Below, piece by piece: positions 48,088 through 60,502 of a stretch of DNA of 64,000 nucleotides. Source of the stretch: Gammaproteobacteria bacterium (GTDB taxonomy: Bacteria; Pseudomonadota; Gammaproteobacteria; Ga0077536); NCBI GenBank assembly GCA_016191285.1, contig JACPPA010000019.1:124001-188000 (forward strand), read 5' to 3'. Positions within the stretch are counted from its first letter, which is position 1. Each line of letters begins with the position of its first letter. The translations under genes and the position numbers were made by a program. The notes beneath the pieces are model-generated. The model was not told the origin of the DNA. It saw only the letters and a list, made by a program, of their open reading frames with translations, and ran no database searches.

Positions 48088-49773
48088 TTAGTTCGCGAGC
48101 CGTGCGGTGGTCGCACGATGGAATTTATGGCAGGTCACACAGGTCGAGGCGAGCTTGCCCGCGGCCGCGTCACCGCTGCCATGGCAGGTGCGGCAACTTT
48201 CGATGCCGGGGAGTAGCACGTCAGCGCTGGTGTCCGAACTCGGTACTTGCTTGTGACAATCGGCACACCCGAGGGTGTCGTGCTGGTGATGACTGAAGTG
48301 GGATTGCGGAAACCAAGCACGCGGAATATTAACCGGCGCCATTTTCCACGCTGCCGCGCCTTCGCCCTTGCCAGTCGGTTCAACTAAATGACACACGCCG
48401 CAGGTGGTGTAGGCAAACATCTCGGCCGCCGCGAGCTTCGCGGATTGTTGCGCCCAGTCGAGCGCCTCTTTGCGCTCGCTTACTGTCAATTCGTGTCCCG
48501 GCCGGCGTCGCGTTTGCACGCTGGCCGGCGCGAATGCATTCGGGTAGCCACCGCGCAGCGCCCACGCCGCGTAATAGTCGTCGACCGCGGCTAACGCCGC
48601 CGCGATATCGCCGTGCGGCACTTCGCGCGCGACATCGCCGGGAATATTGAGCTTATGGCATTCATTGCACGCGGCCTTGAAGGTGATCGGCTGCATGCGG
48701 CCGCCACCGGGTTCAACTTGATGACAATAGACGCAACTCAACTTCACGGCGCCGCGCGTCGGACTCGCGATACCCGCGCTCTGCAAATGGTGTTGATGCG
48801 AAAACTCGACGCCGGGACTCTCCTTTAGCCGCGCCGTATCGGTTAATGACACGCGTTCGGTCGTCTTCTTCCCGTCGTGATACTTAATCAGGGCGGGACG
48901 AAATTCTGGATGGTCAACACTAAAATTCCGCACGTTTTTAACTTTGGTATCCGCCAGCACGCGGGTCAGCGTGCCATGGCACTTAACGCATAATCCTTCG
49001 TCGTGACGCACTAGCGACGTCTTGCCCAGGTGTTCGCGATGGCAACTCGCACAGCGCACGCCGTCAAACAACCCTTGTTTGAGTACCGCCGCCTCGACGT
49101 GATGCACGGTATTCTTGTGGCAGGCGAGACAGGCAGCGTTACGCGTACGGATGAACGGTAATGTGTGGCAGGCATTACAGTTGGTCCCGAAATGCGCGTG
49201 CGCGGAACTCACCGCACCACTCGACCACGCATGATCGGAAGGCATCAGCGGCAACCAGCGCAACCATTTTCCCGCCGACGGAATCACGGCGGCGATGAGC
49301 GGGATCAATAAGAACAACACCGCGATACCACCGGCCAGTCCGAGCGCCCACGGTCGCTTCTTCAACCCTGCCGCCGACAAATTGAGCTTGGCGCGCTTCA
49401 AGAGCGCCAATTCGGTTTCGCGTCCCCGCGCGGCTGGATCTTCTGAAATCTCGAGCTCCAGATCACAACCGCTCGCGGCACCCACCCGGATTAAAAATCC
49501 GCCCAAGTCGATCTGATCGCCCTGTGTTATTACCGCGGCTTGCACGATCGTGCCGTTATATTGAAAGCCGGTTGCCGTCATCGCCTGCAGGCGAATTTTT
49601 CCATCCTGGCCTTCGATTAATTCCGCATGCGCGAGCGCGACCCGCAGATTCGACAAATGGATTTCTTGATCCGTGCCGCGTCCAATCCGAAATTTGGCGC
49701 CGACCAACGGCAGGTCTTGACGCGTGTCACTGGCCTTGGTTTTATGGCTCAAATACCGAACGAGGATGCGCAT
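48088..49773 (-). CDS. FHA-like domain fused to a decahaem cytochrome c
   Basis: It has 561 residues. Residues 1-110 resemble a forkhead-associated domain (FRIGRGTDQEIHLSN, then VALAHAELI and QIDLGGFLI), although the usual Ser-Arg of the phosphothreonine pocket is Ala-Leu. A single membrane helix (about 142-164, ALGLAGGIAVLFLLIPLI) leads to a periplasmic part with ten CXXCH sites, from NCNACH (near 199) to TCVTCH near the end. Many spare His may be axial ligands. The likely topology is FHA in the cytoplasm and haems outside. It is last of a seven-gene operon, six bases after the cytochrome b-like gene. Confidence 0.85.
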   Translation of the reverse strand: MRILVRYLSHKTKASDTRQDLPLVGAKFRIGRGTDQEIHLSNLRVALAHAELIEGQDGKIRLQAMTATGFQYNGTIVQAAVITQGDQIDLGGFLIRVGAASGCDLELEISEDPAARGRETELALLKRAKLNLSAAGLKKRPWALGLAGGIAVLFLLIPLIAAVIPSAGKWLRWLPLMPSDHAWSSGAVSSAHAHFGTNCNACHTLPFIRTRNAACLACHKNTVHHVEAAVLKQGLFDGVRCASCHREHLGKTSLVRHDEGLCVKCHGTLTRVLADTKVKNVRNFSVDHPEFRPALIKYHDGKKTTERVSLTDTARLKESPGVEFSHQHHLQSAGIASPTRGAVKLSCVYCHQVEPGGGRMQPITFKAACNECHKLNIPGDVAREVPHGDIAAALAAVDDYYAAWALRGGYPNAFAPASVQTRRRPGHELTVSERKEALDWAQQSAKLAAAEMFAYTTCGVCHLVEPTGKGEGAAAWKMAPVNIPRAWFPQSHFSHHQHDTLGCADCHKQVPSSDTSADVLLPGIESCRTCHGSGDAAAGKLASTCVTCHKFHRATTARLAN

Positions 49774-49779
49774 CGCCGG

Positions 49780-50715
49780 CTACCAATAAAAGAACACGGA
49801 AAAAATGTGCGCGAATAAAGCCGCCAACAACCCAACCGATAGCGGCACATGCAAATACAGCCAAAACGCCAGCCGCGACTGATATTGAATGTCGCGTTGA
49901 ATTCGCTCGACCAGCGCGCGCTTACGCGAGATCAGATCGAACAAGCGACGGATCTTCTCTAAACGTTCGGGGCCAGCGCCTTCCACCAGCATATGGCCGG
50001 CAAGAAAGCTAATTGCCGTGGCGTCTTGCTCGGCGACTTGCCGAACTTCCGGCGCGCCCCGCGCGATGCGGGCTTCGATGCGTTGTTTAACGACATCCAA
50101 TCCTTCGCTCACGCTGGCGGCCGCCGCGCGCCGCGCCGGATCGCCAAACAGCTGATCCCACACCGACCCGCCGAGGACGGTTTCCTCGATCGAATGGAGC
50201 ACTACCTGATGCGCGTCTTTCCCCACTTGGTCCGACAGCATTAGACACTCGCGATCAAGTTCGGCGACTTCGGCGATTAGCGCATCGCGCGTGACACCGC
50301 CGCGATTCGCCGTGAGCAACCGCGGATAAGTCACATAGGCGTAAAGTCCGTAGAAACCGCTTGCGACCACCAGCAAGGTCAACACATAGGCGATCGAATG
50401 CACATTCCAGCCGAGTTGAAAGCCACTGTGCAGGGTGGTGATGATGACCAGCGTGGTCCCCAGATACACATGCGCGGAAAGCCACGCGGCAAGGCGATTT
50501 TGGGTGTCGTGATAGCGTCGCTTGCGCACGCCAAACCACGCGAGCCAGCCAATCAGCGCCGCACCCACCGTGCCGAGTGTATAGCCGAGCCACGTGCCGC
50601 CATTCGGCGGCTCGGTGGGGTTGTGCAGAGCGTAGGCAAGCACTGCCACGCCGGTCAACCCCAGTGCGATCTTCAGGTAGAAAAAATTACGATAGCTTAG
50701 AAACGAAGCGTGCAT
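49780..50715 (-). CDS. Diheme cytochrome b-like membrane protein
   Basis: It has 311 residues with about five membrane helices: four in residues 12-130 and one at 283-309. H82 and H96 are in one helix (AHVYLGTTLVIITTLHSGF), and H289 and H303 in the last (LHVPLSVGLLAALFAH). Both pairs are H-X13-H, the spacing used to hold two haems across a membrane helix bundle. A 150-residue helical insert (131-280) lies between. I know no named family for this arrangement. It probably links quinone or the Fe-S module to the periplasmic cytochromes. Confidence 0.75.
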   Translation of the reverse strand: MHASFLSYRNFFYLKIALGLTGVAVLAYALHNPTEPPNGGTWLGYTLGTVGAALIGWLAWFGVRKRRYHDTQNRLAAWLSAHVYLGTTLVIITTLHSGFQLGWNVHSIAYVLTLLVVASGFYGLYAYVTYPRLLTANRGGVTRDALIAEVAELDRECLMLSDQVGKDAHQVVLHSIEETVLGGSVWDQLFGDPARRAAAASVSEGLDVVKQRIEARIARGAPEVRQVAEQDATAISFLAGHMLVEGAGPERLEKIRRLFDLISRKRALVERIQRDIQYQSRLAFWLYLHVPLSVGLLAALFAHIFSVFFYW

Positions 50716-50753
50716 TAAAAATTTTAGCGGACGAAATTTTTAACTGCCGCGAC

Positions 50754-53162
50754 TCACCGCGAGATCGCCATGAATTCCTGCGGGCTGACGCGAATGGCGG
50801 CGCCCGTCGGGCAGGCGCGCACGCAGGCCGGACCACCGGCTTGGTCTTTGCACATGTCGCATTTCACGGCTTTCTTCGGCGCGTGTTTATCGGTGCTGTG
50901 GAATTCGTCGCCCGGCGCCGGCCCCTTGCCCAGCAGCAACCATTGCCACAGGCTCGGTTTCTTGGGCTCGCCTTTAACCGCCATTTGAATGACCCCGTAC
51001 GGGCAATTCTGCTGGCAGTTGCCGCAGCCGATACAGTTATCAGCGATATACACTTCGCCTTCGGGTGTCCGGTGAATCGCGTCCGGCGGACAATCCTTCA
51101 TGCAATGCGGATGTTCGCAGTGCCGGCATGACGTCGGCACATGCAGCGTCGCGAAACTGGGGCCCGCCTCGCGATCGAGCAGGGACGTGCCCTTGTGCGT
51201 ATCCGCGCACGCCTTCTCACAATTGTCGCAGCCAATACACAAGGTCTCATCGATCAGTAGCACATCGGTCGCCTCGCCGATCCCCTGTTGCACCAGAAAC
51301 TCAATCATGTTGCCGGCGGCGCCCTGGCTCGCGCGCAAACGCGCGGTTTCGCGTAAACGGCCTTGCGCCTTTAATTTCAGTTCTGCATCGAGATCCGGGA
51401 AGCAGGCGAGCAGTTCGCGGAACACGACGCCTGGCAGTTGGATCGTTTCGGTAGCGACGGCGGCTCGTACAGTCGCCGTGCGCGGCGAATCGGTCAACAA
51501 AGCCAGTTCGCCGACATAGTTCCCGGAGGGCAAATAAGCGATAACGACATCGCGACCACCGATCTCGTGCGACACCGTCACCGAGCCGGTGCGGATCAAG
51601 TGCAGCGAGTCGGCCACATCGCCAGCCTTGAAGATGACCTCACCGGGATTGAACTGCCGGATGCGCGCAGTGTGCACGACTTCGATCAAATCATCTTCGG
51701 AAACCTCGGGCGCGATGTGCATGCGTATGGCACGTAACAAAAAGGTCTCGTCGATCTCACGGCGCACGGATTCCACGGATTGAATGAGCTTATTCATCGA
51801 TCGCCGTGGCGTTTCGATCAATACGCAGTCCTCGCCCGCGATCACCGTCGCGGCGCGGCGCCGGCCAGAGATCAACGACATCTCGCCGAAGAATTTGCCC
51901 TGGCCCAGGGGCAAGGTGCGAGTAGGATCGCTGGGATCGAGCCGAATGTGCGCGGATCCGCGCAGGATCGAAAAGAACGTGTTGGTGTAATCATTGAACT
52001 GCACGACCACTTCGCCCGGGGCTGGTGTGCGAATATCAGAGTCGAGCAAAAATTCGCGTAATTGCAGCGGGGTCAGGCCGGCGAACAGCGGGACATCGCG
52101 CTTGATGGTCGCTATGGCTTTATTGACCTTGGTCAATCCCGGGACATGCGCGAACTTCGCGCGCAACAAGCCTTCGTCCGCTGGCTCTACCTCACGACCG
52201 CAAATGAACTCAACGACCTCGTAGCCCTGATTGATGCATTGTTTGATCAGCGGATAGCCCGCAAGCGCGCCGATGATATAGAGCCCCGGCACATTCGATT
52301 CGTAGCGCGGGGATACCGCCGGCACCGCCGCCGGATCATCGTTCGGAAACTCAATGCCACAGGCTTCGACAAATTTGCGCGGCGGCAACGCGCCCAGGCG
52401 CGCGACGATGCGATCGCAGAGAACTTCGGTTTCGCCCTCCTTGGTCTTCACCATGAACCGCAGACGACGCCCGCTGGGATCCTGATTAAGCGCATCCACC
52501 CGCTTGGGGCTCGCGTTGTAGATGCATTCCAGCTGCCCCGACTCGATGCCGCGCATAATCCCCTTTAGATTGCCGTCCTTGGCGCGTGAAAACTCATCGC
52601 GCCGATTTAGAATGATGACGGTGTTATTCGCCGCCAGCGCAAGCGCATTCTCGATCGCCGCATCGCCGGCGCCGACGATCACGATAGTCTCGTCGTGATA
52701 TTCGTCCGGATCGTCCAGTTGATACTGCACGCAGGGCAGATCGTCGCCCGGCACTTCAAGCTTGCGCAGATTGCCCTGCAATCCGATACCGAGCACGACA
52801 TGTTCGGCGCGTACTTCGTCGCCGCCGGCAAGCGCTAAGATAAATTTACCTTTGCTGCCCTTGATGGCGCTCACTTCAGACTTGAAGCGCACCTGAGCGC
52901 CGGACTTGTGCACGCCGGCGCTCCAGGTCTTCAGGATTTTTTCACGCGTACCGGCTTCGAATCCAACTTCGGCGCGCAGGGGCAACACGCCGGGTTCGGC
53001 CATCACGTGCTTGCCTTTTTGATAACGAAAGATCGTGTTCGCTAGCTGGGGCGCGGCTTCGAGTAACACATGCGAGGTGTTGGTCGCGGCGGCGCGGGCG
53101 GCGGCGCTTAAGCCTCCAGGGCCGGCGCCGACGATCGCGATCTTGACCGAAGCGCTCGCCAT
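50754..53162 (-). CDS. FAD/NAD(P) oxidoreductase fused to two cNMP-binding domains and a four-cluster ferredoxin
   Basis: It has 802 residues. Residues 1-330 are a two-Rossmann flavoprotein (VGAGPGGLSAA near 11, VGAGDAAIENA near 163) of the thioredoxin-reductase/YpdA type, without a CXXC redox pair. Two Crp-like domains follow at about 365-480 and 490-610 (GKFFGEMSLISGRRRAAT; GNYVGELALLTDSPRTAT). The C-terminal 170 residues carry four [4Fe-4S] motifs of DmsB/NrfC type: CIGCDNCEKAC, CRHCEHPHCMKDC, CIGCGNCQQNC and CDMCKDQAGGPACVRAC. It is probably cytoplasmic, passing electrons between NAD(P)H and the membrane protein under cyclic-nucleotide control. Confidence 0.88.
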   Translation of the reverse strand: MASASVKIAIVGAGPGGLSAAARAAATNTSHVLLEAAPQLANTIFRYQKGKHVMAEPGVLPLRAEVGFEAGTREKILKTWSAGVHKSGAQVRFKSEVSAIKGSKGKFILALAGGDEVRAEHVVLGIGLQGNLRKLEVPGDDLPCVQYQLDDPDEYHDETIVIVGAGDAAIENALALAANNTVIILNRRDEFSRAKDGNLKGIMRGIESGQLECIYNASPKRVDALNQDPSGRRLRFMVKTKEGETEVLCDRIVARLGALPPRKFVEACGIEFPNDDPAAVPAVSPRYESNVPGLYIIGALAGYPLIKQCINQGYEVVEFICGREVEPADEGLLRAKFAHVPGLTKVNKAIATIKRDVPLFAGLTPLQLREFLLDSDIRTPAPGEVVVQFNDYTNTFFSILRGSAHIRLDPSDPTRTLPLGQGKFFGEMSLISGRRRAATVIAGEDCVLIETPRRSMNKLIQSVESVRREIDETFLLRAIRMHIAPEVSEDDLIEVVHTARIRQFNPGEVIFKAGDVADSLHLIRTGSVTVSHEIGGRDVVIAYLPSGNYVGELALLTDSPRTATVRAAVATETIQLPGVVFRELLACFPDLDAELKLKAQGRLRETARLRASQGAAGNMIEFLVQQGIGEATDVLLIDETLCIGCDNCEKACADTHKGTSLLDREAGPSFATLHVPTSCRHCEHPHCMKDCPPDAIHRTPEGEVYIADNCIGCGNCQQNCPYGVIQMAVKGEPKKPSLWQWLLLGKGPAPGDEFHSTDKHAPKKAVKCDMCKDQAGGPACVRACPTGAAIRVSPQEFMAISR

Positions 53163-53167
53163 GGCCG

Positions 53168-54520
53168 CTACTGCAACGCTGCTTCGAAAGTCTTCATCTC
53201 GGCGCTAAAGCGCGCCGGTTGATATGCGTTTTCGTCTTTCAGCACGGCGTAGAGGGTTTTGATTTGCGCATTCAATTGAGCGGTTTTTGCGGCGTCTCCA
53301 CCGCTTGCGGGCAACGAATCGACTAAGGCGTGCGCGCCCATTACCGCCTGCTCAGCCGCCGCATAGTCGCGATACTCGCCGTCGCGACCGCCGCGGACGA
53401 TGCTAGTCAAGATGCCGCGCGTCTCGTCTGCAGTAAAAGCGTGACCACGAATCTTGCTATCGATTTTGCCGAGGGTGGCCTGCACGCTCCGCGCTGCCGT
53501 GCGCGCCGCGTCGGCGGATTCGAGGCTGGCCTTATGCAGCGCCAGTAAACCGGCGTGGAGTTCGTCGGCCAGCTGCGCATCGGTCGCACGCATTAAATAG
53601 ATCAACATCAGCAAATTGGCGTCGTTGAAATGCGGCACACCGGGCGGTAAGCCGGCGCTCGCCCGCGGCGCCCAACGCAGTTCGGTTAACGGATGATGAC
53701 AGGCGTGGCAATCGAAGAACGCAAATTCGGGTAATCCCCCCGCGCCTTGGCCCTTCTGACTAATGAATAGCTCAAGCGTGCGCGCCGCGGCCGCGCTTTG
53801 ACCCACCGCCCAGGTTTCGACATGCGAGGCAACGCGCTTGCGGCTGCGATAATCGGCATCGGTGCGAAAATGCGCGGGCTGCAAGACGGTGAACGTATCG
53901 AGTTCGAACGACAGCCGCGGGTGGCCGGCGCCCATGATGCGATGGGTGGCGAATTTATTCTCGGCACCTAGGTGGCACGCCAGACATAGCTTCGCACGCG
54001 CGGCCGGTTCCTCGGTCGGATACATGCCGACTTTTAAATTATCCGCCCGACTCGCTTCACCCGTAACATGAGTACCCAACCACTTCGACGCCGGACCATG
54101 ACAGGTTTCACAACTGACACCATCGGCAATTTGAAAGCGCTTGCCACGCTGCGCTTCGGGCGCGTTATTGGCATGGCAGTTGAGACATTCGGACGCGGTG
54201 GCCGCGTTATCGAGGCCCAGGTTGTGCGCGATGCGCTGGCCTTTTTCTTCGAGCAGCACGCGATACGCCTTGGCGTGTGCATCGTCGCGATGCCAGGTGA
54301 TGAATTCGTTTTGATTGACTTTGGAATCCACCAGCGGATGCGGCGCGCCATGGCACGTTGATCCGGAACAGGTAACAACCCCCAAATACTTTGCCGGTTC
54401 GCTAGCCGCGTCCTCACTAAGCGCGGCGCGTTGCATCAGACAACCGCCCACTGCGATCAATAGCATGACACTAAACCGATAAGCCGGCCGCGCTCGGGAG
54501 GAGAAAAAGTAACGAATCAT
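53168..54520 (-). CDS. Multihaem cytochrome c, c554-like (copy B)
   Basis: It has 450 residues with an N-terminal signal (FSVMLLIAVGGCLMQRAALS). Haem motifs: CSGSTCH, a CX4CH variant, near the N-terminus, then CLNCH, CETCH, CLACH and CHACH. A helical tail of about 170 residues without haem follows. HRIMGAGHPRLSFELDTF is shared word for word in structure with the next gene (HQLYGAGHPRLRFELDTY), so the two are tandem duplicates. Periplasmic electron carrier or reductase; the acceptor is unknown. Confidence 0.87.
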   Translation of the reverse strand: MIRYFFSSRARPAYRFSVMLLIAVGGCLMQRAALSEDAASEPAKYLGVVTCSGSTCHGAPHPLVDSKVNQNEFITWHRDDAHAKAYRVLLEEKGQRIAHNLGLDNAATASECLNCHANNAPEAQRGKRFQIADGVSCETCHGPASKWLGTHVTGEASRADNLKVGMYPTEEPAARAKLCLACHLGAENKFATHRIMGAGHPRLSFELDTFTVLQPAHFRTDADYRSRKRVASHVETWAVGQSAAAARTLELFISQKGQGAGGLPEFAFFDCHACHHPLTELRWAPRASAGLPPGVPHFNDANLLMLIYLMRATDAQLADELHAGLLALHKASLESADAARTAARSVQATLGKIDSKIRGHAFTADETRGILTSIVRGGRDGEYRDYAAAEQAVMGAHALVDSLPASGGDAAKTAQLNAQIKTLYAVLKDENAYQPARFSAEMKTFEAALQ

Positions 54521-54545
54521 CGCGCTGTATTCCCTATCCTAGGCG

Positions 54546-55883
54546 TCAGTGTTGACCGAGACTCGCGCCTATTGAATTTAAGGCTTTCGCGAACGCGGTT
54601 GGGCGATAGGTTCGCTCATTACCGACCGCTAGATAGATTTCGTTTAGCGTCGCGTTCACGCGTTCAAAATCGGCGGGCGGCAGCCGTCCCTCATCAAACT
54701 CCGCGGCAATCAACGTGGCTAAGGACATGGCCACGCTCTCGGCCGCGGTGAATGCCAGTGGCGCCTCTGCTTTTGCTTCATCGACAAGCGCGCGCGCGAT
54801 CGCAAGTCCATCACTGGATTGTTCGTGATACGTATGGAGGGCGCTAGCGAGCATTTCGACCTCTTGTTTGAGGGCAGTCGCGCGACTCGCGCGCGAGCCC
54901 GGATCGTTGACACTGACCTGCAACGCGCGCGTGGCGCGACGCAGCGCATCGACCTGCGTAGGGTTAACGATTCTAGCCGCTCCGCGCAAGACGACAAACG
55001 CCGAGTCGTTAAAAGTCAGCGCACCGGATTTCACGCCCTGCCGCGGCCGATATTGCGGATCATCGTTGATTCCACGGTGGCATCCGTGACAATCGAACAA
55101 CGCAAGCTCTGGCCAGCGACCCGAGTTAGCGCCGGCCAGCGCCGCCGCCTGTTGTAAACCGGCGGCGATCTGCCCCGCCATCCATAGCTGGACATGACTG
55201 GCGAGCGGTTTGCGCCGGCGATAATCGGCGTCGAGATTGACATGCATGGGCTGCAACGCGGTGTAGGTATCGAGCTCGAAGCGCAACCGTGGATGTCCCG
55301 CACCATAGAGCTGATGGCTGGCTTTGCGAACGTTGTCCCCTTGATGACAGGACAAACAAAGGGCCGCGCGCGCAGCGGGTTCATTGGTGGGATAAAGCCC
55401 GGCCGCGACATTCGCGGCATGCGTGGCCGTCGGCTGCATATGGACAGCGAGAAAGCCACCGCCGGGACCATGACAGGACTCACAACCGACGCCGGCCTCG
55501 AGGCTAAATTTGGCGCCGCGCTGCGCCGCCGGGACGTAAGTGGTATGGCAGACCAAGCAGTCCGCTGCTTGGGCCGCATCGGCCAATCCCAGGTTGTGCG
55601 CAATCTGCTGGCCGGCCGTGCTGCTCAAACTGCTGAAGGCCTTGGCATGTCGATCATGCGCTTCCCAGATCGTGCGTTCTTTCATCGCCACGGTGGCATT
55701 GCGCCAGGGCTCGCGCGATCCATGGCATTCAGTCGAGCCGCAGGTGTCGACGCCGAGGAATCGCGCGGTTCGCTCATGCGGTAGCCCGACCGGTGTTGCC
55801 GGTTCTGCGGCGCTGGCCGCGACGTACCAGAGTCCGGTAAGGGATATCAACAACAGCGGCAGCATTGAACGCAGCGGATTCAA
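54546..55883 (-). CDS. Multihaem cytochrome c, c554-like (copy A)
   Basis: It has 445 residues. It starts at TTG 55883, overlapping the barrel stop as TTGA; an ATG at 55865 is the alternative. The signal peptide is LPLLLISLTGLWYVAASA. Haem motifs are CGSTECH (CX4CH), CLVCH, CESCH, CLSCH and CHGCH, in the same order and spacing as copy B. The CX4CH site needs a dedicated or tolerant haem lyase, so it may be a high-spin site or a non-haem relic. Confidence 0.87.
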   Translation of the reverse strand: MNPLRSMLPLLLISLTGLWYVAASAAEPATPVGLPHERTARFLGVDTCGSTECHGSREPWRNATVAMKERTIWEAHDRHAKAFSSLSSTAGQQIAHNLGLADAAQAADCLVCHTTYVPAAQRGAKFSLEAGVGCESCHGPGGGFLAVHMQPTATHAANVAAGLYPTNEPAARAALCLSCHQGDNVRKASHQLYGAGHPRLRFELDTYTALQPMHVNLDADYRRRKPLASHVQLWMAGQIAAGLQQAAALAGANSGRWPELALFDCHGCHRGINDDPQYRPRQGVKSGALTFNDSAFVVLRGAARIVNPTQVDALRRATRALQVSVNDPGSRASRATALKQEVEMLASALHTYHEQSSDGLAIARALVDEAKAEAPLAFTAAESVAMSLATLIAAEFDEGRLPPADFERVNATLNEIYLAVGNERTYRPTAFAKALNSIGASLGQH

Positions 55884-57490
55884 AACTTGAGCCGCAACTC
55901 GGCGCGTACGCCGGCCAAATTATCTTCGCCTTCGCGATAACCGTAGATCGCGTCAGTACGGAAAATCCACTGTTTGGACAACGGCCGCTGGTAGCGCGCA
56001 CCCAACGCGAATTGATCGCCTTTGGCGGCGCGGCCGGGTTCGTTATCACGCCCAAAGGGCTTTAACCCCGCCACCTCGAACACCAGTTGCTGATCGAGGT
56101 TAAATAAATATTCAATGCCGAGCGCACCACCGTAGGCATCGTTCGCGGTGTCGTCGAGTTTTGGAAATCCAGTCAGACCGTCGGTTTCGAAATTGATCCC
56201 GGTGTTCTTCAAAATCCCGCCCGCGCCAAAATCGCGGGCGAGCGATTGCGGCTTCCGCGAGCCGATAAAAAAGTTCGCATACGGCACCAAGGTGTACGGC
56301 TTGCTGGTGATGAGCGAGTTCTCGATCAGTAACAACCAACCGTCAGCGGTTTTGTTGAATCCCGCGCCTGGGTTCTGACCGAAGTTCCACACCACGCGGA
56401 CTGAGTTCGAGACTTTGCCGAACCAACGTTTCGTGACCGCGGCGGTGAGATTGTGATAGCTAAAATCGCCGAGCAGCGGCGAGCGATTGTCGTGGGTATA
56501 CCCGTAGCCCGCCTCGATGTACATTTCACGCGCTTCAATAAACACTGCCGAGCCATAAATATCGGCGCCGTGATCATCAAACCGCTTGTTCGGCTGCAGC
56601 TCGGCCTTGGTCGTCACCCGATCAAAACCGCCGAAGAACGTGATATCCATGTTCGAAATATCGAAGCGCGGGCTATTCAACGCCGGGATCGTGAAGGCGC
56701 CGCCCATGATCGCGTCTTCCATCCAAATTCCGTTCTGAAAGACGAGCGGCATCAATCCGAATGCGATCGGCAAATCATACAAGTTATAACGATCAGTCAA
56801 GCCGGCGGCGATTTGCCCCAGGTCGCCCTCAAAAAACAGCGCTTCCGGCTCGAGATCGAGCAGGACGCCGCCGTCACCCGTGCGATCGCGTTGATTGCCG
56901 CCGAATTCAAAACGCGTGACGCGCCCGGTCTCGACCCGATCAAGCGGGCGCAGAAAGACATGCACGCGCTCGGTGGCCGTCAGTCGCATGTCGATATTGA
57001 GATTCAACCGCGCCGCGACTTGGGCGGTATCGAGCGCGCCGTTGTCGTTATACGCCGTACCGAGACGCAGATCGCCGAAGACGAGTAGTTCCGGCCGCAC
57101 CGGATTTTTTGCACCGAGCAAGTTGATCCCGGGTCCAATCGAACCCGCTTGATACAGCGGATAACCCCATTCGACCGGCGGGCGCGGACCGTCGACCCGC
57201 CGTTTGCCGCCGTAGATCGCGAGTTGCGCGGCGACGTCATAGGGCTTGTCGACATAATTTGGATCGGGCCCGAACGCGCTCGGTTTAAATTCGGTGACCT
57301 TGGCTTCAGGCGCCATCTCGACCGGCGGCGACGGACGACCTGCATGAGAGTCGCGAGGAGCTTCCGCGGCAGGCTCCGGGATTACGGGTGCGCCTGTTGT
57401 TGGGCCGCGCCGCGGCACCTCCGCTTCGGCGCTCGAGATCCCGCCGCCAAGCGCCACAACGACCAGCGCAGCATTGAAAATACTTCGCAT
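55880..57490 (-). CDS. Outer-membrane beta-barrel protein
   Basis: It has 536 residues from ATG 57490, four bases after the upstream stop (a TTG at 57508 also fits). A signal peptide (SIFNAALVVVALGGGISSAEA) and a Pro-rich linker precede many amphipathic strands; the chain ends AGVRAELRLKF, with the C-terminal Phe of outer-membrane barrels. No cysteine-haem motif. I do not recognise a family. In this operon it could be a porin for cytochrome exposure (as MtrB does) or for a soluble electron acceptor; no sequence link to MtrB is visible. Confidence 0.75.
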   Translation of the reverse strand: MRSIFNAALVVVALGGGISSAEAEVPRRGPTTGAPVIPEPAAEAPRDSHAGRPSPPVEMAPEAKVTEFKPSAFGPDPNYVDKPYDVAAQLAIYGGKRRVDGPRPPVEWGYPLYQAGSIGPGINLLGAKNPVRPELLVFGDLRLGTAYNDNGALDTAQVAARLNLNIDMRLTATERVHVFLRPLDRVETGRVTRFEFGGNQRDRTGDGGVLLDLEPEALFFEGDLGQIAAGLTDRYNLYDLPIAFGLMPLVFQNGIWMEDAIMGGAFTIPALNSPRFDISNMDITFFGGFDRVTTKAELQPNKRFDDHGADIYGSAVFIEAREMYIEAGYGYTHDNRSPLLGDFSYHNLTAAVTKRWFGKVSNSVRVVWNFGQNPGAGFNKTADGWLLLIENSLITSKPYTLVPYANFFIGSRKPQSLARDFGAGGILKNTGINFETDGLTGFPKLDDTANDAYGGALGIEYLFNLDQQLVFEVAGLKPFGRDNEPGRAAKGDQFALGARYQRPLSKQWIFRTDAIYGYREGEDNLAGVRAELRLKF

Positions 57491-57494
57491 ACGC

Positions 57495-59252
57495 TTACTT
57501 AACCTCAAACTCGACGGCGCGCGGATGCAAATCGACCATCCACTCGTTGATCGATTGCTCCATGTCGATGGTCGAGCCGACGAATTTCATGAAGTAGATC
57601 GGCTCCGCGCGACTCCGCATCCGTGACTGCAGGACATATTTCCCCGGTTTGGTAAACGCCGACGCTGGGATCTTGTAACTAGCATCGCGGGCGCCAAGCG
57701 GCGGCAGGCTGCGACCTTCCATGCGGATGGTCGGCGGATGATTCAATACCGTGGTCGGCACGCCGGGCGGCCGAATATGCGGGAGTTGATCGCCGTCGAA
57801 GTTGATCGGCAGGTACATCTCGCGGTCGGTGCCCTTGATGTTGGTCGTCAGGAATTTGGTCTGCAGATTAAACAACTGCTTATCGAACGGCACTGCGCCG
57901 CTGGCGACTTCCAGCGAGTGAATGTCGGCCATATCGCCATTTTTGTCGACGTAACCGCTCTCCCACACCCGTTGCCCATCCGGATCGAGTAATACCACGT
58001 TGAACCACAACTCGGGTTGCGCACCGAGCGAACCCGACGGCAGGTTGTGTCCCTGATCAAGATTGGTAATGCGATAGTGCAACTTCAGAGGTTGTTGGAG
58101 TGTCAACGTCGAATCGAAAAACGGACCGTCGATTCGCATCGCATTTTCCATCACATCGACGCGCGATTTTTTCTTGTCATTCAGCAGCTTTTGATTGAGA
58201 GAAATCACATAGCGCGCTTCCTCGCGATCGGCGCGTGCGTTCCACTCGGGCGGAAATTCAGCCTTCACGGTGCCACGCGCGACTTGGTCTTCCCACTGCG
58301 GGTCACCCCAAGCCGCGCGGTAATCGAATTTCAGCCAATCGTTGATGGTCCAGCGCAGGGCGCGCGGGTTGAACGGGAAGATCCCGGGATGCGCGATCGG
58401 ATATCCCGGGCCAAAGAACATGTGATTTGAATGCTTTTGTTTGGGATCACCGACAGTCTGACCGTTGACGATCGCGATCGGCCAGGTCTCGAAACCGGCC
58501 GGCTCGCCGGGGACCTTGCCCATATGGCATTGCTGACAGGTAATGCCGGCCTTCGCCGCCGGCGCGCCGCGATACTGTTCCCAAACCACTTCGAGCTTGA
58601 TGCCCGGGTGCACCGCGACTTGGTGACAGGAGACGCAAAATTCGCTTTTTGAGATTTGTTCAAACTTAATCGGCGTCCCGTGAATCGGCGTCCCGGGAGC
58701 GCCGGGGGTAGCGGCCACGCCGTATTCGCTGGCTTTGGCTATAACCTCGCCGTACTTGCTCCCGCTGCCCGCCCCTGCCACGGGTTGCCCGAGATCGCCG
58801 GCGTCGACATGACGTTCACCATTGACCTTGCCGAATTGCGTCGACACTCGATGACAGGTGACGCAGGTTATGCCTTCGCGCGAAATTTCCGAGCGCTCCC
58901 ACAGCGGCTTTTCGCGCGGTTCCCCCATTTGCGTCGCGATTTGCTGATGGCAGCGGACGCAAAACGTGCCGATGGTGCCCGAGGCGAAATCGGTGATGGT
59001 CTGCTCGAACTTATGGAACATCGGCGAAATCGACGCGTAGGCGTGATTCGACACCGCCCATTCCCAGAATACTTTGGGATGACAGCCGGCGCATTGCTGG
59101 GCGCTCGGGAATTGCGACTCGGCAAAGACCGCGGTATGCGGATCGGCGCCGGCCAAGGCGACGGCGGACAGCATACCTAGCGCGAGACCGACCAGAACAC
59201 CGGCGGTTGGGGACCTATACACGCGTCGATGACGCGGTCTGTTCGATGCCAT
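57495..59252 (-). CDS. Pentahaem cytochrome c, first gene of the redox operon
   Basis: It has 585 residues from ATG 59252 (a GTG at 59276 is the alternative). The signal peptide (GVLVGLALGMLSAVALA) is followed by CAGCH, CVRCH, CVTCH, CVSCH and CQQCH in residues 60-270, the arrangement of c554-type cytochromes. The C-terminal ~280 residues are haem-free beta structure (LHYRITNLDQGHNLPSGS, ELWFNVVLLDPDGQRVW), which resembles a sugar- or protein-binding sandwich. It could be the terminal reductase or a donor to the outer membrane. The promoter is shared with hemB. Confidence 0.87.
   Translation of the reverse strand: MASNRPRHRRVYRSPTAGVLVGLALGMLSAVALAGADPHTAVFAESQFPSAQQCAGCHPKVFWEWAVSNHAYASISPMFHKFEQTITDFASGTIGTFCVRCHQQIATQMGEPREKPLWERSEISREGITCVTCHRVSTQFGKVNGERHVDAGDLGQPVAGAGSGSKYGEVIAKASEYGVAATPGAPGTPIHGTPIKFEQISKSEFCVSCHQVAVHPGIKLEVVWEQYRGAPAAKAGITCQQCHMGKVPGEPAGFETWPIAIVNGQTVGDPKQKHSNHMFFGPGYPIAHPGIFPFNPRALRWTINDWLKFDYRAAWGDPQWEDQVARGTVKAEFPPEWNARADREEARYVISLNQKLLNDKKKSRVDVMENAMRIDGPFFDSTLTLQQPLKLHYRITNLDQGHNLPSGSLGAQPELWFNVVLLDPDGQRVWESGYVDKNGDMADIHSLEVASGAVPFDKQLFNLQTKFLTTNIKGTDREMYLPINFDGDQLPHIRPPGVPTTVLNHPPTIRMEGRSLPPLGARDASYKIPASAFTKPGKYVLQSRMRSRAEPIYFMKFVGSTIDMEQSINEWMVDLHPRAVEFEVK

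Positions 59253-60502
<1,250 letters not shown>

Follow-up and report, generated by a model that had tools for sequence, protein, structure and literature searches.

A seven-gene operon on the minus strand of the window (the whole stretch of DNA analysed, 64,000 nucleotides) matches in gene content and motifs PCC4, a porin-cytochrome cluster named in 2017 by He et al. (PMC5566968), of which it is a distinct variant. The operon may form a PCC4-family trans-envelope system linking NAD(P)H in the cytosol with the periplasm, and probably with the outer membrane, with electrons travelling outward, a reading to which we give about an even chance.

Operon organisation

Four of the seven predicted products are multihaem cytochromes: a pentahaem protein, two c554-like paralogues and a decahaem protein with an FHA domain. 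The other three are an outer-membrane barrel, a YpdA-like FAD/NAD(P)-2xCNB-4x[4Fe-4S] protein and a dihaem-b protein of five helices. The open reading frames and their domains are as follows:

48088-59276, minus strand: seven-gene operon, in the order g1 to g7
57495-59276, minus strand: g1, periplasmic pentahaem cytochrome c with signal peptide (five CXXCH; Cytochrome_C554/C7/NNT Pfam matches)
55880-57508, minus strand: g2, outer-membrane beta-barrel with a long N-terminal extension (AlphaFold model, pLDDT 63, with PDB fold matches)
54546-55883, minus strand: g3, c554-like pentahaem cytochrome (CX4CH and four CXXCH, from Pfam and motif count)
53168-54520, minus strand: g4, c554-like pentahaem cytochrome, paralogue of g3 (CX4CH and four CXXCH, from Pfam and motif count)
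50754-53162, minus strand: g5, cytosolic fusion of FAD/NAD(P)H, CNB, CNB and four [4Fe-4S]
52173-53162, minus strand: g5 N-terminal YpdA/TrxR-like FAD/NAD(P)H domain (GAGPGG, GAGDAAIEN, NRRDEFSRAK)
51768-52115, minus strand: g5 CNB1, phosphate-binding cassette FFGEMSLISGRRRAAT
51363-51731, minus strand: g5 CNB2, canonical phosphate-binding cassette VGELALLTDSPRTATV
50793-51260, minus strand: g5 HycB/DmsB-like ferredoxin domain (16 Cys, for four [4Fe-4S]; includes pfam13247)
49780-50715, minus strand: g6, five-TM dihaem-b inner-membrane protein (model pLDDT 86)
48088-49773, minus strand: g7, decahaem cytochrome with inner-membrane anchor and cytosolic FHA domain
49474-49773, minus strand: g7 FHA domain (GR and N kept; phosphothreonine-contact Ser replaced by Ala)
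48118-49200, minus strand: g7 periplasmic decahaem domain (ten CXXCH and ten conserved distal His)

The frames lie at these coordinates and on this strand, GC by codon position is of the coding type, and Pfam matches (C554/C7/C3 cytochrome domains, FHA, two cNMP_binding, Pyr_redox and 4Fe-4S) agree with the preliminary description of a seven-gene electron-transfer operon on one strand. Its range of intergenic gaps, -4 to 38 bases, is right at the upper end only: from g1 to g7 the gaps are -14, -4, 25, 5, 38 and 6 bases, the smallest holding only if g2 starts at TTG. For g1, a TATAAT box at 59284-59289 makes ATG 59252 a likelier true start than GTG 59276. Promoter and terminator scans gave scores not above those of shuffled sequence, and a palindrome upstream of g1, considered as an operator, was dropped since it is not conserved.

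Haem motifs number five in g1, four CXXCH and one CX4CH in each of g3 and g4, and ten in g7, with none in g2, g5 or g6, for a total of 23 CXXCH and two CX4CH. Neither CX4CH motif varies among relatives, and exactly ten extra His are conserved in the decahaem protein, so that the motifs translate into a predicted 25 haems, in keeping with the earlier estimate of about 25 motifs.

Relation to known porin-cytochrome clusters

PCC4 was reported from drinking-water filters and from organisms known or suspected to oxidize iron or manganese; its inner-membrane protein (IMP) has five transmembrane helices (TM), with WX3HX13H on TM3 and TM5 and SGXXG on TM4, and in subgroup II a pfam13247 Fe-S gene lies upstream of the IMP (PMC5566968). 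The window operon shares with PCC4 a barrel, pentahaem, c554-type and decahaem cytochromes, a b-protein of five TM that carries the two WX3HX13H motifs and SGXXG, a pfam13247 Fe-S protein adjoining the b-protein (for g5, 41.0 bits against a PF13247 cut-off of 26.2, fused to FAD and CNB domains), and a redox partner of NAD(P)H type. The porin gene adjoins multihaem cytochrome genes, g1-g2-g3-g4 being contiguous in the window, and the cytochrome set is similar, with 5, 4 (+CX4CH), 4 (+CX4CH) and 10 CXXCH and one c554 paralogue extra. The suggestion that this was an undescribed system thus falls away, its gene content and signature motifs matching those of PCC4 (PMC5566968).

Three features nonetheless set the operon apart. 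Where PCC4 has separate FNR/[2Fe-2S] and CNB-4Fe-4S genes, the window operon has one FAD-2xCNB-4Fe-4S fusion; its c554 gene is duplicated, with one haem more; and its decahaem protein carries an FHA domain whereas that of PCC4 has a Cys-rich N-terminus. No FNR/[2Fe-2S] gene is present upstream of the c554-type cytochrome in the window operon, its role appearing to be fused into g5, and because this separate redox gene is missing the operon is classed, on its sequence, as a variant rather than a typical member. Compared with clusters of PCC4 architecture found here, which are not the proteins of the original paper, identity is 36-60% for the pentahaem (36-37% at L113 and L063, 60% at L136), 28-49% for the barrel (48% at L114, and 44% at L136, a locus arranged as in subgroup I) and 18-22% for the IMP; the C-terminal half of g5 is also homologous to these clusters.

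A sister cluster, labelled type B in this analysis, has the arrangement g5-g6-g7-HbpS-barrel-large LVIVD decahaem and probably corresponds to group 1 in the ghost-rock paper (PMC13264449). It shares the fused g5, g6 and a decahaem g7, mostly FHA-bearing, but its outer module lacks g1 and g2 and consists of an HbpS-like protein, an unrelated barrel and a large decahaem cytochrome of about 1250 aa. In the g6 tree the window's protein is nested inside the type B clade, and by these comparisons the window variant is a PCC4-like pentahaem/barrel pair together with an inner-membrane core otherwise found in HbpS-barrel-large decahaem clusters.

PCC3, catalogued with PCC4 since 2017 as a possible iron-oxidation conduit, has a b-protein with the same motifs but differs in its cytochromes, with 21-24 haems in the periplasmic ones and up to 77 in the large ones (PMC5566968). 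Most of the PCC3 loci compared here have an adjacent flavin and 4Fe-4S gene, and no CNB, FHA or c554 genes were recognised at them. MtrAB/MtoAB/PioAB resemble the operon as an idea, in combining a barrel with multihaem cytochromes, but the g2 model is smaller than the 26-strand MtrB and the host genome has no match to the MtrB/PioB barrel (PF11854). The literature searched held neither a characterised cluster joining FHA or CNB domains with multihaem cytochromes nor experiments on any PCC4-family member.

Conservation of gene order and co-occurrence

Whether the same order recurs elsewhere, a question raised in the preliminary description, is answered by L009, L011, L054, L056 and L057, which keep all seven genes in order at protein identities of 28-83%, and by L010 and L065, in which the order is kept up to the contig ends. 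Genera of the host's family other than its own share the order, and judged from these loci its recurrence is far above chance. The g5-g6-g7 core is a recurring block in many Gamma- and Alphaproteobacteria, though a few relatives, L058-L062, have g6-g7 without an adjoining g5. The type B core is also present in Sphingobium, which is noted for its heterotrophs and includes cultured strains.

The pentahaem g1 family is rare (5 of 369 genomes). Three carriers other than the host, G063, G189 and G208, all belong to the set of 15 genomes, the host's excluded, in which the b-protein has a strong match (Fisher p about 2e-4, likewise without the host's genome, in a test on few genomes that ignores their kinship), and a fourth, G389, has a more distant b-protein match beside its pentahaem. 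In G063 and G208 the pentahaem/barrel pair lies on another contig than the core. That these redox genes are unrelated and only loosely grouped is very improbable: the order is kept across genera, the core across two classes, and the unlinked pentahaem/barrel pair co-occurs with the core.

The inner-membrane core and direction of electron flow

In g6 the motifs are W78-X3-H82-X13-H96, S119GxxG123 and W285-X3-H289-X13-H303, and a large cytosolic loop joins TM4 to TM5; nine positions (G48, W78, H82, H96, G120, G123, W285, H289 and H303) are invariant in 40-42 relatives. Rows from plasmid records were left out of the alignment for the g6 fold. Fold searches of the g6 model against the PDB returned only helical bundles of sensor domains and transporters, at Z of about 10 or less, with no ferric-reductase or cytochrome b chain among them. 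NADPH oxidases and ferric reductases (FRD) are functionally alike in passing electrons from NAD(P)H through flavin to two transmembrane b haems for export, and g6 has two HX13H pairs; it has no Pfam match to PF01794 and its fold matches are uninformative, so that the likeness is one of working and homology is not implied. The FAD domain of g5 has Bdr/YpdA (7a7b), TrxR and ferredoxin-NADP reductase (5ygq) as PDB relatives.

In the path that we propose, the FAD of g5 would be reduced by NAD(P)H, and its four [4Fe-4S] clusters would hand electrons to g6, docked at the large cytosolic loop. The two b haems, bound by H82/H289 on the cytosolic side and H96/H303 on the periplasmic side, would carry them over the inner membrane, from where the ten haems of g7, itself anchored in the membrane, would relay them to g4, g3 and g1. 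Finally, g1 and the small barrel g2 would deliver them to an external acceptor, or to one entering via the barrel. This topology is plausible; that the parts form one chain, its outward direction, its physiological acceptor and its gating are what we infer. The NAD(P)H route of the chain sketched earlier (NAD(P)H or quinol through Fe-S and cytochrome b to periplasmic haems) accords with the anatomy and draws support from the comparisons.

He et al. drew their model, an extracellular donor feeding quinone, from the habitats of Fe(II) oxidizers (PMC5566968). Across the four architectures compared, the b-protein is accompanied by a flavin NAD(P)H enzyme and an Fe-S domain. These are fused as g5 in types A and B; in PCC4 (L113) they are separate FNR/[2Fe-2S] and CNB-4Fe-4S proteins, and in PCC3-like loci a 4Fe-4S-YpdA-like gene. 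Because a pyridine-nucleotide flavoenzyme thus usually accompanies the b-protein, NAD(P)H-linked export is favoured over quinone input, the sequences pointing to an NAD(P)H link and not to quinone alone. Electron uptake, in which Fe(II), Mn(II) or a similar donor is oxidized outside and electrons run inward through g6 to the quinone pool, with g5 serving regulation or reverse transfer to NAD(P)+, would suit the resemblance of the g6 motifs to quinone-active dihaem b proteins as well as the iron- and manganese-oxidizer habitats of PCC4 (PMC5566968), but we consider it unlikely in view of that flavoenzyme, of a host with a RuBisCO-like match only, of relatives that include Sphingobium and of a membrane potential that inward electrons would oppose. 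The RuBisCO match, single and short (model positions 1-86, VDVIKDDHG in the reading frame), reads as RuBisCO-like and was dropped as a sign of lithoautotrophy. In the favoured export, electrons leaving NAD(P)H for an outward wire would run down the redox gradient, with the membrane potential assisting. If flow is outward, the marker-gene reading of PCC4 as 'iron oxidation' needs revision; cultured Sphingobium makes both direction and cyclic-nucleotide control testable.

The outer module

The g2 barrel has no Pfam match, and its profile found nothing in a sequence search of the PDB. Its model, of moderate confidence, has about 18 strands and is OprD/AlgE/MOMP-like, with OpdQ (Z 26.4) and MOMP (Z 26.3) as top fold matches and OpdK-vanillate and AlgE also among the matches. 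With so few strands of this type, a cytochrome plugged inside the barrel as in MtrB is doubtful, and the reach to the cell surface proposed earlier is uncertain on this model.

Such a porin would also fit periplasmic respiration of a soluble compound, g2 taking up the substrate and g1 or g3/g4 acting as terminal reductase (or oxidase), with no haem route over the outer membrane. The substrate porins matched by g2, the resemblance of g1 and g3/g4 to soluble cytochromes c552 and c554 (g4 has the c554 structure 1bvb as PDB relative; g3 and g4 are 36% identical) and the lack of an extracellular cytochrome in the operon agree with this. It is rated rather improbable, however, since conserved extra His at least match the haem number in each of g1 (seven), g3, g4 and g7, which suggests six-coordinate wire haems, though not conclusively for g1, g3 and g4, and since type B joins the same core to a different barrel and a large decahaem. 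In g7, ten CXXCH matched by ten conserved distal His mark the decahaem domain as a predicted electron wire.

Nucleotide-sensing and FHA domains

Of the gating by cyclic nucleotide and FHA modules that had been suggested, only the former is favoured. The FHA domain of g7 keeps GR and N of the conserved Arg/Ser/Asn phosphothreonine pocket but has lost the Ser, and it is absent or replaced in many g7 relatives; binding of phosphothreonine is doubtful, and a role as its sensor was dropped. In both CNB domains of g5 the Glu and Arg of the phosphate-binding cassette are kept (GE...RRRAAT and GELALLTDSPRTATV), and the two pockets look intact and are predicted to bind cyclic nucleotide, which would adjust electron flow.

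The comparison suggests a single modular family with a common NAD(P)H-flavin/Fe-S/dihaem-b core and interchangeable outer-membrane parts. The fuller picture of an NAD(P)H-driven exporter in which the redox enzyme itself, not transcription, is gated by cyclic nucleotides, built from interchangeable inner- and outer-membrane modules common, with variations, to PCC3, PCC4 and HbpS-type clusters, is tentative and in its entirety doubtful. Nucleotide-sensing domains are present in several branches of the family, and in alphaproteobacterial relatives a cNMP-phosphodiesterase-like gene lies 3' of g7.

Operon structure and haem content

The seven-gene multihaem operon is found on one strand, as the preliminary description held, with seven open reading frames (g1-g7) at 48088-59276 whose base composition by codon position is of the coding type.

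Genes of the operon in transcription order
g1, minus strand, first: pentahaem cytochrome
g2, minus strand, second: outer-membrane barrel
g3 and g4, minus strand, third and fourth: c554-like cytochromes
g5, minus strand, fifth: FAD/NAD(P)-CNB-CNB-4Fe-4S protein
g6, minus strand, sixth: membrane dihaem-b protein
g7, minus strand, seventh: FHA-decahaem protein

The c554-like proteins share 36% identity. The earlier count of about 25 haem motifs is right, since to 23 CXXCH motifs are added two CX4CH motifs that are invariant among relatives, and in each cytochrome the conserved extra histidines at least equal the haems in number (g7, with its ten haems, has exactly ten). Just upstream of g1 lies a near-perfect palindrome, TTGAATTctgTAAACTAGTTTAttaAATTCAA (59300-59331), with a TATAAT box (59284-59289) between it and g1, an arrangement not seen before g1 in relatives. 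The divergent gene at 59492-60502 (plus strand) reads, from its sequence alone, as hemB, encoding delta-aminolevulinate dehydratase of haem biosynthesis.

Conservation and published relatives

The operon is real and well conserved. Its gene order does recur, completely in five other loci (L009, L011, L054, L056, L057; L-numbers denote loci compared with the window) and up to contig limits in L010 and L065, the block g5-g6-g7 being the stable core in the locus comparison. Relatives of g6 occur in 18 of 36 genomes of the host's family and in 27 of 369 genomes of a class-wide sample, 16 of these 27, the host's own included, giving strong matches (E 1e-57 or better); a full-length relative of g5 was present in about 4% of a phylum-wide sample. 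Downstream of g7 in L009, L011, L056 and L057, though not beside the window's operon, nearby genes read as hydantoinase/acetone-carboxylase-type pairs.

The system is not of an undescribed kind, for which the preliminary description had made it a candidate. In the PCC4 clusters of He et al. 2017 a porin is accompanied by MHCs (4, 5 and 10 haem sites), by other redox genes and by an inner-membrane protein of five TM helices that bears SGXXG and two WX3HX13H motifs; in subgroup II a pfam13247 Fe-S gene lies upstream of this membrane protein (PMC5566968). Compared with clusters of this described architecture rather than with the accessions of He et al., the window shares these features but has no separate redox gene, whose role appears fused into g5. 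The g6 motif residues are invariant in 40-42 homologues, the SGXXG serine nearly so. The kind is thus already catalogued; as far as found, the literature searched holds no tests of PCC4 function, and He et al. name neither FHA nor cyclic nucleotide in their main text (PMC5566968). The cluster in the window is of value for the comparison of modules, for its link to NAD(P)H and for a possible cyclic-nucleotide switch.

Four architectures and a possible module exchange

Locus comparison distinguishes four architectures with related cores.

Cluster architectures
Type A (window): gene order 1-2-3-4-5-6-7
Type B (label given here): 5-6-7, HbpS-like protein, different barrel, large LVIVD-repeat decahaem cytochrome (about 1250 residues)
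PCC4 type (L063, L113, L114, L133; partly L110-L112 and L132): pentahaem, barrel, FNR/[2Fe-2S], c554, CNB-CNB-4Fe-4S, b-protein, decahaem with Cys-rich N-terminus
PCC3-like (L064, L080-L085): b-protein, 21-24-haem and further large cytochromes, porin in most

Type B, often including one c554 gene, is present in Gamma- and Alphaproteobacteria, and its HbpS-like/barrel/LVIVD-repeat decahaem (about 1250 aa) cluster is widespread (L068-L079, L115-L123); no known function was found for this outer module. Type B fits a group in a 2026 metagenome paper with a large decahaem, a porin of about 20 strands and a ferredoxin-NADP reductase nearby (PMC13264449). Twelve Sphingobium plasmid records carry a g6 relative, type B core and outer module being read in two, L086 and L087, which are very large plasmids with a CpdA/SpdA-like phosphoesterase gene adjoining. 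On contig C1 of genome G189 a complete PCC4-type cluster (L133) directly adjoins a type B cluster (L068). Single reading frames with 69 to 77 CXXCH occur in PCC3-like loci (L064:13021-19998, L081:656-5770).

In the g6 tree the window groups with other type A loci (support 0.90), type A lies inside type B, and PCC4 and PCC3 lie outside; for g1 and g2 of the window, by contrast, PCC4-type loci were the only ones among those examined to hold relatives. A type B core is thus combined in the window with a PCC4-like outer pair, a state that may have arisen by exchange or be ancestral.

Near the b-protein, all four architectures have an Fe-S domain together with a flavoenzyme for pyridine nucleotides, apart from single-locus exceptions. 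PCC4-type L136 has no Fe-S gene, and its pentahaem and barrel lie on the opposite strand; a 4Fe-4S-YpdA-like gene adjoins every PCC3-like locus except L080. The rare pentahaem gene accompanies the b-protein even when unlinked, carriers G063, G189 and G208 all falling within the 15 non-own strongly b-positive genomes (p about 2e-4, from few genomes and with kinship ignored). In G063 and G208 the g1-g2 pair is on a separate contig (L134, L135), and in a fourth carrier, G389, a more distant b-protein adjoins. Both recurrences favour reading these genes as one system.

Proposed inner-membrane route and signalling domains

The g5 protein is without a signal peptide. YpdA/Bdr, thioredoxin reductase and TrxR-like ferredoxin-NADP reductase come closest to its N-terminal domain, which has no CXXC disulfide and bears an RR motif (NRRDEFSRAK) of a type usual for NADPH binding; a ferredoxin with four clusters, resembling HycB/FHL-2, forms the C-terminus. 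The g6 model has five transmembrane helices (pLDDT 86), and charge bias puts the TM2-TM3 loop, hence also the long TM4-TM5 loop, in the cytosol, which would direct one His pair towards each membrane side. In g7 a cytosolic FHA domain is joined by one TM helix to a periplasmic decahaem domain. Given these g5 domains, the His pairs on both sides and a g7 that spans the membrane, a continuous route from NAD(P)H through FAD, Fe-S and b haems to c haems is anatomically possible.

The proposed gating by signalling domains divides. The phosphate-binding cassette of g5 is canonical in CNB2 and near-canonical in CNB1 (PCC4-type relatives keep it in CNB1 and have lost it in CNB2), and direct cyclic-nucleotide control is plausible. 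In several alphaproteobacterial loci a calcineurin-like phosphoesterase follows g7, its best families, below curated cut-offs, being SpdA and CpdA, which are cyclic-nucleotide phosphodiesterases. FHA control by phosphothreonine is doubtful: Arg and Asn are kept, the pThr-contact Ser is Ala here and in close relatives, and the domain is absent in L058-L062 and L071. PCC4-type loci have a Cys-rich stretch in its place; the cytosolic repeat there (CGR..GxxC..GP...G.C; decahaem N-termini of L063, L110, L113, L114) is possibly a metal or redox sensor.

Outer-membrane barrel and direction of electron flow

The anatomy permits the NAD(P)H route of the preliminary description, and the g2 model weakens its cell-surface end. 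Built from 11 sequences (pLDDT 63), it shows a barrel of about 18 strands whose structural matches are OprD/Occ, MOMP and AlgE channels, with Z 23-26 and an rmsd of about 3-4 Å over 320-350 residues. As modelled, such a barrel is too narrow for an MtrA-like cytochrome inside, which weakens the name porin-cytochrome conduit for type A; g1 would dock below the channel, which would serve a small acceptor or donor. The alternative is that strands in the N-terminal extension, 110 residues long, escaped the model.

Electrons passing outward along a wire that starts at NAD(P)H move downhill and with the help of the membrane potential. The flavoenzyme, moreover, is almost always present, and a RuBisCO-like gene is all that the host shows of RuBisCO. 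On these three points export from NAD(P)H is favoured, at about even confidence overall, over uptake from a donor to quinone. Uptake is the direction proposed in the model of He et al., and the same three points stand against it. The RuBisCO-like protein (L124; contig C34 of genome G000) has VDVIKDDHG at the catalytic region and is unlikely to fix CO2.
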